A DNA stretch of 38,479 nucleotides from Chitinophagales bacterium. Its GTDB lineage: Bacteria > Bacteroidota > Bacteroidia > Chitinophagales > CAIODY01. Below the pieces are notes generated by a model. It did not search any database, was not told the DNA's origin, and saw nothing but the letters and a program-made list of their open reading frames with translations. Positions 30,238-34,042 of the stretch are shown here, in pieces. Numbering within the stretch: position 1 is the stretch's first letter; each line of letters begins with the position of its first letter. A program made the position numbers and the translations under genes. The DNA lies in assembly GCA_947449695.1 (NCBI GenBank), contig CANFST010000026.1, forward strand, positions 1 through 38,479, given 5' to 3'.

Positions 30238-30315
30238 ATGAAAAAAATAATTTTAATTTTACTTCTGCGCAGAGGTTCGTGTCCCCACGAACCTCTGCAG
30301 GGAATTATTGCTTAA
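30238..30315 (+). pseudogene. Truncated signal-peptide reading frame ended by a hairpin repeat
   Basis: ATG at 30238, 1 nt after the stop of the preceding gene, opens MKKIILILLL, a convincing signal-peptide start. It then runs into the hairpin repeat (RRGSCPHEPLQ), stopping at 30315 inside the antisense end of the next gene. It looks like the first codons of an operon gene whose remainder was lost when the repeat arrived. Chance is possible with so few codons. Confidence 0.4.
30269..30298. repeat. GC-rich hairpin repeat, copy 1
   Basis: A perfect 13-bp inverted repeat (arm GCAGAGGTTCGTG, 30269-30281; partner 30286-30298) around TCCC. It shares CTGCGC and GTGTCCCCACGAAC with the hairpin at 33314-33374. 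It lies between convergent genes, so it may also act as a bidirectional terminator, although no T run follows. Confidence 0.8.
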
Positions 30316-32884
30316 CTATTTTACTACGCCAAACATTACCATGTTGGATAATTTCTATAATGTAAATACCCTTTGCTTGTTGCGACATATCTAAATAGAA
30401 ATGGTCGCTTGTTTGTTTTTGTTTCTCAATTATTGTTTGACCTGTTAAACTTATTAGTTTTATGGTTGCCTCATCAACGATTTTTGTCAATGTAATAGTA
30501 GTTCCATTGATTGTTGGATTTGGGAAAACCTTTAATTGGTTATTATTGGCAAATGGTTCATTTAACCCAGAAACTTCAATATATACGCAATCAGAAGTAT
30601 CAGTACATGAACCCATGCTTATAATCACCGCATAATGCCCAGTAATAGATGCAGTATAGTTTTGAGCCAAAGCGCTAGGAATAATGTTATTGCTATCACA
30701 ATTAATCCATTGATAAGATGCGCCAACTTGCAGTGCTGTAATTGTTGCACCACTATTTGAGGTTGTTATGTTGGGAGGCAGATTTACAGTTAAATTTAAA
30801 ATCAATAGTGAATCGCAACCTAAATAGTTGATTAAGGTGTCTTTATAGATACCATTATTGAAAATAATATGACCATTGAATAAAATGCTATCTCCTTTGC
30901 AAATACTTTCATTAATTGTATCGATGCTTTTTGGGATAACATATAAATTTAAAGTCAATATTGAGTCACAACCTAAGTAATTTTGGAAGGTATCTTCATA
31001 AACCCCACTTGAAAGTAATAGACGGTTATTGAAAACAATAAATTGACCATTGCAAATGGTTCTGTTAATTGAAGAATAAGATATATTGCGAACTAATAAA
31101 TGAGTTACAATAACACTATCGCATCCCTGATAGGTTGAAATGGTATCAATATAAATACCTGCTGATTGCACGTTAACCCCGTTGGGTAAAGTGTAATTTT
31201 GATTAGCACAAATTGAACTGTTTATATTTTTATATTGAATATTATGTACAATTAGTTTCAAAGTAACAATAGAATCGCAGCCCCAATAATTTTGAATTGT
31301 ATCATAATAATATCCGCTTGCAGATAGTTGATGACCATTAAAATAAAATGTTTCATTGCTACATAATGTTTGAATGATAGTATCTTTTGAAATTGGATTC
31401 ACAGTTAAAAATGTAGTAATTATGCTATCGCAACCTAAATAGTTAGTTAACGTATCTAAATATGTGCCTGATGAAGTTGATAATTGACCATTAGGTAAAG
31501 TATAAGCATGATTTGCGCAAATTGTAATATGAGCATTAGATAGGGAAGGCGAATTGATAGTTAAATGAAGCTCAACTATTGAATCATCACCCACTAGATC
31601 GCTTAGGGTATCATAATAAACACCTGCTGTTCGAAGCGTATCATGACCAATTACATAAGATCTACCGCTACAGATACTTTGATGACTGATAGTTACATCA
31701 TTCCACATGGCTACAAATTGATGATTTGAACTATCTACAAATGCACCACCAAAATATAATTTATCTTTTTCGTCCCGAAGTATAGTTATTATAGAAGACA
31801 AGATTCCTAGGTTATACCCAAAAATACCATTAAACCTATATTTACCACCACCCATTTCTTTCCAATTTGTCCCATCCCATTTGGCTACATAGCAGTGTCC
31901 GTTTTGGGCAATCACACTATCAGCGAAACTACCAGCGGAATATACGTTTCCTTTATTGTCAACTGATACAGATAGTATATTGCCATTCGCATTCAAAGAA
32001 TTGATACCTACACCTAATTCGTTCCAAGTTGTTCCATCCCATTTGGCTACAAAGCGATGTCCATTAGTACTTATGCTACTATCTGTAAAAACCCCAGCCG
32101 CATAAATATTGCCTTGCTTATTAGTTGTAAGCGCTAAAATCGAATTATTGGCATGTAATGCATTGTTACCTGTGCCCAATTTTGACCAAGTAGTTCCATT
32201 CCATTTGGCAACATATTTATGCCCCAACATCGGGTTGGTTGTATCTGAAAAAACACCACCTGCATATAAATTGCCAGCTTTATCAAAACACAATGCATGA
32301 ATATATTGATTAGCATTTAAAGCATTGCTGCCTGAGCCCAATTCGCTCCAAGCCGTTCCGCTCCATTTGGCTACATAACACTTTGCTGCTGAATTTGTAA
32401 AAGCCCCAGCGGCATAGACATTGCCAAGGGTATCTAAGGCAATGGTGAAGATGTTACCATTTGCATTTAAAGCATTGCTACCAGTACCTAATTCGCTCCA
32501 AGAGGTTCCATTCCATTTGGCTACATATTTCTTATTGAATGAATTCCTGAATCCGCCAGCAGCATAGACATTGCCAAAAGTATCTACTACAATAGCATTA
32601 ATACCGCTGTTTGCATTTAAAGCATTGCTGCCTGTGCCCAATTCACTCCAATTGATGCCATTCCATATGGCTACATAATACTTACCTGTTGAGTTCGTGA
32701 AATCACCAGCAGCATAGATATTACCGTATTTGTCTTTTACAATACTTTGAATATCGCCATTGGCGAAAAGCCTATTAGCTCCCTTACCTAGTTCGATGAA
32801 GCCAAAAGGAATACTTTGACCTACAGCAATGTTAACTGTAAGATAAAAAAGGAGCAATAATCCTATAATTTTAAAAGATTGCAT
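30305..32884 (-). CDS. Long secreted T9SS protein: seven propeller-type repeats plus six Cys-containing repeats
   Basis: Exported, probably surface-displayed or released. Start ATG 32884 gives signal MQSFKIIGLLLLFYLTVN...GQ; a GTG 24 nt upstream is also in frame. Residues about 40-400 hold seven repeats of 50-54 residues, each with GN(V/I)YAAG, then (Y/F)VAKWNGT-W and ELG-G-N-LN; the seventh is divergent. Seven units suggest one seven-bladed propeller. Next come six units of about 50 residues with IC at the start and YLGCDSI at the end (the first has GDDS instead). An Ig-like segment (ASYQWINCDSN) follows, then a T9SS sorting domain (KVFPNPTINGTTITL ... GIYIIEI). It is likely an adhesin or structural protein; no catalytic motif was seen. 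Confidence 0.87.
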   Translation of the reverse strand: MQSFKIIGLLLLFYLTVNIAVGQSIPFGFIELGKGANRLFANGDIQSIVKDKYGNIYAAGDFTNSTGKYYVAIWNGINWSELGTGSNALNANSGINAIVVDTFGNVYAAGGFRNSFNKKYVAKWNGTSWSELGTGSNALNANGNIFTIALDTLGNVYAAGAFTNSAAKCYVAKWSGTAWSELGSGSNALNANQYIHALCFDKAGNLYAGGVFSDTTNPMLGHKYVAKWNGTTWSKLGTGNNALHANNSILALTTNKQGNIYAAGVFTDSSISTNGHRFVAKWDGTTWNELGVGINSLNANGNILSVSVDNKGNVYSAGSFADSVIAQNGHCYVAKWDGTNWKEMGGGKYRFNGIFGYNLGILSSIITILRDEKDKLYFGGAFVDSSNHQFVAMWNDVTISHQSICSGRSYVIGHDTLRTAGVYYDTLSDLVGDDSIVELHLTINSPSLSNAHITICANHAYTLPNGQLSTSSGTYLDTLTNYLGCDSIITTFLTVNPISKDTIIQTLCSNETFYFNGHQLSASGYYYDTIQNYWGCDSIVTLKLIVHNIQYKNINSSICANQNYTLPNGVNVQSAGIYIDTISTYQGCDSVIVTHLLVRNISYSSINRTICNGQFIVFNNRLLLSSGVYEDTFQNYLGCDSILTLNLYVIPKSIDTINESICKGDSILFNGHIIFNNGIYKDTLINYLGCDSLLILNLTVNLPPNITTSNSGATITALQVGASYQWINCDSNNIIPSALAQNYTASITGHYAVIISMGSCTDTSDCVYIEVSGLNEPFANNNQLKVFPNPTINGTTITLTKIVDEATIKLISLTGQTIIEKQKQTSDHFYLDMSQQAKGIYIIEIIQHGNVWRSKIVKQ

Positions 32885-32963
32885 TTTAAAGATTTTTGAA
32901 TTATCCACAAGTTTAGTAGGGCGCTGTTGATAAATTTATTTGCAAATATGTTTGCATATTATG

Positions 32964-32977: not shown

Positions 32978-33313
32978 ACTTCGTAGAAATTATCAACAAA
33001 CTAATAATTATCCCATGAAATCAAATCTCTTAATTATTTCATTATTTTGTTTTGTACTACTATTGCCTTCTGTTGTATTTCCTCAGGCATTTATGCAATC
33101 ATGCAACCCAGATTTTCGGGCAGGTAGTTATAGTAGCGCTGTAACTACTACTAATATGGATGCCTATTCAGATAATCAAACCAACGGTATTTCCGTTGAA
33201 GCTGTGGTATTTGATGGCAGTACACCAGGTTTAACCATTATGGATTATTCGGGAGGGGCTACATTTCCTACAATGGGTTACTTAGCTTTATCAACGAATG
33301 CTTTTGACCCTGC

Positions 33314-33374
33314 GCCTCGGTTAGTGTCCCCACGAACATCAATCATTTCGGTTAGTGGGGACACTAACCGAGGC
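33314..33374. repeat. GC-rich hairpin repeat, copy 2
   Basis: Perfect 20-bp inverted repeat, arms 33314-33333 and 33355-33374, with a 21-nt loop. The left half contains CTGCGC and GTGTCCCCACGAAC shared with the hairpin at 30269-30298. It is much more GC-rich than the surroundings. Confidence 0.85.
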
Positions 33375-33395
33375 AGGGTGGTGAGATTGTCTTTA

Positions 33396-33430
33396 GCTCC
33401 CCCTCCTTTAGGAGAGGGCAGGGGTGAGGT
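33396..33430. repeat. GC-rich imperfect palindrome (GEGRGEV-type intergenic repeat)
   Basis: The core CTCCTTTAGGAG is palindromic and is flanked by C-rich and G-rich arms (CTCCCC... and GGGGTGAG). Read in frame it gives PPPLGEGRGEV, a peptide I recall as frequent in predicted proteins of Bacteroidota where such intergenic repeats are translated; that recollection is not checked. GC content is far above the flanks. Confidence 0.65.
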
Positions 33431-33472
33431 CAAAATAAGGGGTTTAAAGCGGATAGATATTGAAAATCAAAT

Positions 33473-33703
33473 GGTTGTAAATTATAAACAAAAGTTTACA
33501 GCCTGTAACCAACTGGATATGGCTTGTAACCAGTTGGTTACAAATGATAACCAGACGGATAAGGTTTAAAACCATTTGGTTACAAAACAAAACCAGTTGG
33601 ATACGAACCATATCCAGTTGGTTATAAAGCAAAACCAACTGTTTACTAATTATAACCAGTTGGTTATAATTGATAACCAGACGGATAAAATGACAATAGA
33701 TTT
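33473..33703. repeat. Degenerate 21-bp tandem repeat array (about 11 units)
   Basis: Units start at 33473, 33494, 33515, 33536, 33557, 33578, 33599, 33620, 33641, 33662 and 33683, exactly 21 bp apart. Most begin GGTTA or GGATA (alternating through much of the array) and end AACCAGTT or AACCAGAC; the first and last are degenerate. Each unit is itself loosely palindromic (GGTTA near one end, TAACC near the other), so many overlapping short stems are possible. The period equals seven codons, and both strands stay open over parts of it with NQL-containing heptads. Confidence 0.85.
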
Positions 33704-33748
33704 TTTAAAATAAAAATTTTTAACAATTAAAACAGCTAACAATTATGA

Positions 33749-34042
33749 GCTCAAAAAACATTTGTCGGCTCACATCTGGCACCTCAAAAAGATGTTTTTA
33801 TTTGTCAGCGTACTTTGCAACCTACTGATGATATCTTAATGATTAATAGCGGTCATGTGCCTCTCAGATTTTTTGCTGCTGCTCAAAAAACTGACCCTAT
33901 AGGTGTAGCTTTTGTCGAAATATCCCCTATGTCTTCTCAAACCCACCAAGCACATGAGCTGGGGGCTCTGAGCACCAATCATTACATTAAAGTATATAAC
34001 CCCGACCTGTTTCAAGAAGCAAGCTGGGAGTTGGATTTGTAA
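33749..34042 (+). pseudogene. Orphan C-terminal gene fragment without a start codon
   Basis: An open frame after TGA at 33746 reads AQKTFVGSHLAPQKDVFICQ and on through TDDILMINSGHVPLRFFAAA to a TAA at 34042, 97 residues. It has no good start: the first candidates are a TTG at 33815 and an ATG inside, at 33839. The composition is protein-like and a good terminator follows, as if this were the true 3' end of a gene. I do not recognise the family. It may be the missing end of the secreted gene at 33015 or of another lost gene. Confidence 0.5.

Follow-up and report, generated by a model that had tools for sequence, protein, structure and literature searches.

A REP-associated array of 21-bp quasi-palindromic units whose palindrome differs between paralogous copies in a Chitinophagales genome

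The closest described counterpart of the locus reported here is BrickBuilt of Porphyromonas gingivalis, a minisatellite of 23-nt units set between a leader and a tail within a MITE, which is present in 19 copies in one genome with a variable number of units. The same species has MITEPgRS (MITE464), with 41-nt repeats, and the paper describing both elements (PMC4596501) was the sole close case returned by our literature search on 21-bp palindromic arrays. We analysed a window of 38,479 nucleotides (the whole stretch of DNA, contig C26) from the genome of a Chitinophagales bacterium, a 3.14-Mb assembly in 99 contigs belonging to the Bacteroidota. Here, a composite element that encloses an array of 21-bp units would seem to work like BrickBuilt without being a member of it, the two being likened by description. 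As BrickBuilt is described in PMC4596501, both are Bacteroidota minisatellites of about two helical turns, enclosed together with a leader and a tail by a short intergenic element that is present in several copies, both vary in unit number between copies, and both have long predicted stem-loops. Conserved leaders and tails flank the units in our genome, and there are several intergenic copies with varying unit number. However, BrickBuilt units are described as 23 nt long, of one sequence family and bounded by IS5-type terminal inverted repeats (PMC4596501), whereas here the units are 21-bp quasi-palindromes, a REPIN lies at the left end, paralogous copies hold different palindromes and many unrelated arrays have the same period. 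No IS-related terminal inverted repeats were found in the composite, and because these ends are missing we do not file it as a BrickBuilt member. MITEPgRS offers a parallel at about four turns, with tandem units in a short non-autonomous element; our genome and that of a sister species (G001) have 41- and 42-bp arrays. The likeness is again one of description, and the available account of MITEPgRS reports neither an association with REPINs nor palindromic units (PMC4596501).

The left part of the composite recalls another group of elements, the REPs, REPINs and BIMEs that go with RAYT transposases (PMC3733652). The shared features are pairs of short inverted hairpins between genes, a single RAYT-like gene and the joining of hairpins into composites with other repeats; unlike those elements, the hairpins here have no GTAG or CGTC end tag by inspection. 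What is new at this locus is a variant of the known minisatellite-MITE kind, made of palindromic 21-bp arrays whose palindrome is swapped between paralogues.

The array and the composite that carries it

The array (Table 1) holds eleven units on a strict 21-bp grid, without indels by inspection. TRF assigned a period of 21 to positions 33527-33680 of the window and a period of 42 to 33527-33687. Identity at lag 21 is 0.62, against a best value of 0.44 at any lag from 5 to 59 in 1000 dinucleotide shuffles, and the tandem array of about eleven 21-bp units that had been claimed from the letters is therefore real. Each unit is a near-palindrome TAACCA-nn-TGGTTA followed by about seven variable bases; a typical one reads TAACCA-GT-TGGTTA-CAAATGA, in which a 14-bp near-palindrome centred on two bases precedes a variable piece of seven. 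Within the units, 52 of 66 arm positions pair, and the density of palindromes (8.1 per 100 bp) is about eight times that obtained when unit columns are permuted (1.0), with 0 of 300 permutations reaching it, which bears out the near-palindromic character in the original prediction. Palindrome centres are seen as GT and AC, and also as AA and TT; since AC is the reverse complement of GT, units lie in both orientations. The alternating GGTTA and GGATA ends that had been singled out reflect a true 42-bp higher-order period. A CRISPR array, which would share the regular layout, the partly palindromic units and the variable pieces, was rejected on architecture: the units are diverged (pairwise identity 9-19 of 21 bases) with a variable part of about 7 bp, and the Rfam scan of the array returned no CRISPR family.

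Table 1. Features of the composite and the adjoining frames (window coordinates)
Feature	Positions	Strand	Basis or remark
Putative secreted-protein gene, 5' part, running into the composite's left end	33015-33308	+	translation; signal-peptide-like start
REPIN-like pair of inverted REP hairpins, left end of composite	33309-33380	.	24-nt arms, 96% complementary
GC-rich hairpin repeat, type CTCCCTCTCCTTTGGAGAGGGCAGGGGTGAGG	33396-33430	+	short matches in relatives' genomes
Leader CAAAATAAGGGGTTTAAAGCGGATAGATATTG (33 bp)	33431-33463	+	kept in 3 of 3 copies; alignment of C26, C15 and C47
Array of 11 x 21-bp quasi-palindromic units	33464-33694	.	TRF, inspection, alignment
Short tail AATAGATTTTTT, right limit of the part common to C26, C15 and C47	33695-33707	+	alignment
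Gene fragment (75 aa) downstream of array	33815-34042	+	relatives in open frames of 321-333 aa

The composite measures about 400 bp (33309-33707) and consists of a REPIN-like hairpin pair, a GC-rich hairpin, a leader, the array and a short tail. Its two hairpin elements are the two adjoining repeat classes that had been reported beside the array. The left pair consists of two REP hairpins in inverted orientation, is multi-copy, and is kept in both other copies of the composite; the GC-rich hairpin repeat is widespread, with short matches in seven relatives (G001, G002, G031, G040, G070, G075 and G083). Nearby genes had been called broken, and both adjacent reading frames do look fragmentary. 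The upstream gene, for which 60 genomes yielded no relatives, appears to have been truncated. The downstream frame is most likely a broken gene, judging from the open frames of more than 320 aa in its relatives. REPs are also seen within or just past the signal-peptide part of other frames (window 30265-30295; L007:8717-8785), as if such a site were preferred. The 150-bp repeat at 32309-32722 is an ordinary coding repeat; the protein concerned (30305-32908) is of propeller type and has a type IX secretion tail.

The array is not unique: the composite occurs at at least three places, between genes or in broken genes, and BLAST within the genome located two further copies, on C15 (99% identity over the array) and on C47 (69%). 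The three composites have a left flank of about 153 bp in common at 92-95% identity (C26 and C47 flanks are about 92% alike), and in each a reading frame that starts with a signal peptide precedes the left end, represented by its first 10 to about 100 codons. Beyond the tail, only C26 and C15 are still similar, over a further 50 bp or so that lead to a start codon (ATGAGC at about 33758). Each copy has 11 units. The C26 and C15 arrays differ at three positions, all at or adjoining palindrome centres. Between C26 and C47, units 1 and 2 match at 20 and 19 of 21 positions (39/42) and unit 11 more weakly (14/21), whereas units 3-10 match at 101 of 168 positions in total, with AAACAnnTGTTT in C47 where C26 has AACCAnnTGGTT. 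Both arms shift in concert, from AACC..GGTT (AACCA/TGGTT) in C26 to AAAC..GTTT (AAACA/TGTTT) in C47. The middle spacers are no more similar at the same index than at other indices (p = 0.32), and this absence of positional likeness fits re-amplification. Paralogous copies retain their flanks yet exchange the palindrome.

Arrays of 21 and 42 bp across the genome and beyond

A TRF survey of 1.64 Mb, about half of the genome in pieces partly chosen by hits, gave 28 rows with a period of 21 bp, 14 with a period of 42 bp and at most two with any other period from 16 to 40. When arrays that lie within long genes or are plainly coding were left out and at least four units and a period of at least 14 were required, 19 non-coding arrays were counted in the same 1.64 Mb, 17 with a period of 21 or 42 and two with a period of 41; no other period was found. 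For the most part they are unrelated in sequence (compare TTGGGCGGATGCCCACAACTT, GGAAACnnnnnGTTTCC and TGTATGnATACA), and in 12 of the 19 the density of palindromes lies above the column-permuted null (P<0.05). The window array is one of at least 17 arrays that have a 21- or 42-bp beat in common and are scattered between genes, in support of the unit expansion and two-turn spacing proposed in the original prediction.

The exchange of the palindrome recurs in this class. In a second pair of paralogues, L139 (C4) and L176 (C17), the left flank is 100% identical over 76 bp and the tail matches at 174 of 180 positions; the units differ in both arms (GGAAA..TTTCC vs GCGAAA..TTTCGC), and the final unit is AACAAGTTGT in both. 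In another pair, L149 (C7) and L197 (C19), the left flanks are 98% alike and the arrays have 6 and 8 units, a difference of exactly 42 bp. Five arrays (L139, L157, L176, L182 and L195) adjoin members of a single family of secreted-protein genes, marked by an N-x-S/G-F-E motif that follows the signal peptide; this family has 28 matches in the sampled half of the genome.

REPs are frequent beside the arrays. REPs and REPINs of family 1, to which the pair in the window belongs, were found at 20 places and those of family 2 at 12 in the 1.64 Mb. For twelve of the 19 arrays a REP stands no more than 300 bp away (seven of family 1 and five more of family 2), against a mean of 1.3 and a maximum of 8 in 5000 trials of random intergenic placement. 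In this count, family 2 had been identified through the flank of an array, certain pieces of sequence had been chosen for the REPs or arrays in them, the family-1 neighbour at L122 matches weakly, and paralogous composites do not count as independent. With the dubious cases removed, L132, L161 and L195 still adjoin REPs. We know of no 21-bp tandem array that forms part of BIMEs. The genome has a single Y1_Tnp (RAYT-like) gene, at L180:15031-15630 (C28), with an NHFHFM motif and a score of 27.6 bits against a cut-off of 23; it has no directly flanking REPs, and the nearest family-1 REPIN lies about 2.3 kb downstream with one gene between. Structure, copy number and this single gene support the assignment of the left hairpin pair to the REPINs.

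Few counterparts of the array were found among relatives. A DNA-similarity search of 99 of them found, outside the genome itself, just the GC-rich hairpin repeat and chance pieces. A three-unit covariance model run on 396 genomes of the order, with 14 candidates scored per genome, yielded a single degenerate 21-bp array (G132, L066), along with two pairs that are operator-like or due to chance; at that depth of scoring, its silence elsewhere says little. When the motif was sought with free spacing in 395 Bacteroidota genomes, true arrays turned up in the genome itself and in no other, the remaining four matches being long coding-like repeats. The sister species G001 has, in 0.29 Mb, a 42-bp array directly after REP-like sequence and a 41-bp array, and G003, of another genus, has in 0.4 Mb a 19-bp array built of REP sequence and two non-palindromic 21-bp arrays. 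At L224:15146-15317 in G003, nine near-identical 19-bp units CGTGAGACACGAACCATAA are pieces of a REP hairpin that stands intact about 50 bp away, and on this sequence evidence the array appears to be a REP turned into a tandem array.

Farther afield, among 84,980 species searched for the exact motif, arrays were present in one Armatimonadetes genome, one of Stahlbacteria, two of Tannerella and a further, uncultured one. Both period and palindrome were required by the search pattern, so these distant arrays point to convergence or a wider class and not to descent, and they cannot show a preference for 21 bp outside the genus. In the Stahlbacteria genome (G773), ten 21-bp units ACGGATGTCTGCATGCTTCAT on C14 (L120:1476-1790) stand right after two in-phase units of an unrelated palindrome AAGCAGTTGCTTATAGGAGGT, and a further 21-bp array lies on C10. 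The two Tannerella genomes (L062:800-1180 and L064:6050-6300) have intergenic 21-bp arrays between divergent genes, with a common 12-bp palindrome AAACACGTGTTT and different 9-bp spacers. In viral contigs the same palindrome gave 3, 1 and 2 matches at periods of 20, 21 and 22, so 21 is not special there; three such contigs (L115, L116 and L117) have 20-bp iteron-like arrays AATCATTTGTTTTACATTGT in common.

Competing explanations and the origin of the arrays

Any explanation has to deal with the grid, the symmetry and the concerted change of arms. If the array were transcribed, it might form a single long hairpin, or several short ones, that would play a conserved role. Its folding energy is indeed far below that of dinucleotide shuffles (z = -12 in C26 and -5.6 in C47), and the C26 spacers add foldback complementarity on the + strand (z -2.2 to -3.9). 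However, most of this energy comes from the repeated palindrome: when palindromes are kept and spacers are permuted, C47 becomes ordinary (z -0.8) and C26 modest, and the extra foldback of C26 is not seen in C47. Arms covary between the array consensuses, which template switching would also explain, and compensation is absent at the level of units. Among 122 changed pair cells within arrays (the near-duplicate C15 left out), 116 are broken and 6 are still paired by a double change, so selection on individual hairpins looks weak. Rfam yielded no family at its gathering threshold, with weak matches far under the cut-off, and the structured RNA that had been offered as one reading appears quite improbable. 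An antisense coding heptad repeat (KQMFTxx / NQLVxxx), intact or decaying, is more improbable still. In each of the three arrays the antisense frame is open throughout and has the same end, LIFNxYPL-stop, but no conserved ATG, GTG or TTG stands ahead of it, and with four core codons per unit free of stops such openness comes cheaply. Formally, both strands do read as NQL-type heptads; the sense heptad frame nevertheless contains stops in all three copies, no Pfam family matches the sense ORF extending into the array, and the 41-bp sister arrays cannot be heptads, so that the suggestion of a decaying coding repeat is not supported. Because 41 is not a multiple of three, the factor common to 21, 42 and 41 would be an even number of helical turns and not codons.

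Even helical turns are what a protein-binding array would predict, with each palindrome a dimer site on one helix face, two turns apart, for example for a nucleoid, partition or REP-binding protein, and with the spacing under selection. The strict 21-bp grid, the recurrence of 21, 42 and about 41 bp across unrelated sequences, the palindromic units and the retention of 11 units in C26 and C47 all agree with this idea. Iterons and plasmid centromeres likewise have tandem sites, spaced by about 20-22 or 43 bp and often dyad-symmetric; unlike in those systems, no adjoining replication or partition gene was seen here and the sequence is not kept between copies. Nearly each array has its own palindrome, even among paralogous copies in one genome, so no single sequence-specific site fits all; changes in one arm go uncompensated, and no common neighbouring regulator gene was seen. 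We think a binding array unlikely. Similarly doubtful is an active process in the genus that installs and rewrites palindromic arrays at a two-turn period beside REPINs, in which hairpin processing, perhaps by the RAYT, would swap the palindrome while unit number, period and flanks are held, and in which period and symmetry, not sequence, would be inherited or selected.

The account we consider probable is that the array is a REP-associated, MITE-like minisatellite within a non-coding composite, amplified and homogenised by hairpin slippage and template switching. Template switching is documented to create and mend hairpins, and can perfect the stem of a quasi-palindrome in one event (PMC8794818). 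We envision that units are born and replaced through repeat slippage and hairpin-templated copying: a single template switch would alter both arms of a palindrome and could invert a unit, and slippage would then propagate the new unit along the array and leave the non-palindromic flanks unmoved. Such a combination would account for coordinated arms, inverted units, changes in unit number and frozen flanks. The concerted change of the palindrome has two readings, selection for paired arms or mutational copying of one arm onto the other, and we infer the latter mechanism. Exactly 11 units in C26 and C47 despite a changed middle would be a coincidence under free slippage. Template switching and slippage alone leave the 21 bp unexplained; the two-turn period may reflect DNA geometry. 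The composite may be mobile as a unit. By inspection, neither of its ends, CTGCGCC... and ...GACAATAGATTTTT, is an inverted copy of the other; no terminal inverted repeats were found, and the three copies show no obvious target-site duplication. Movement of the composite in one piece is therefore unproven, and it could instead have spread by recombination or segmental duplication. In G001, the region upstream of der has different genes and no array, and thus provides no clean empty site. On this account the array needs no function of its own.

If our account of a minisatellite shaped by slippage and template switching is right, this one genome amounts to many natural replicates, in which unrelated arrays have a 21-bp period and symmetry in common. 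Paralogous pairs in which the core has been rewritten between frozen flanks would then serve as a test of hairpin-templated mutation against selection for covarying stems. Covarying stems that arise by mutation would, moreover, be a trap wherever covariation is taken as proof of a functional RNA.
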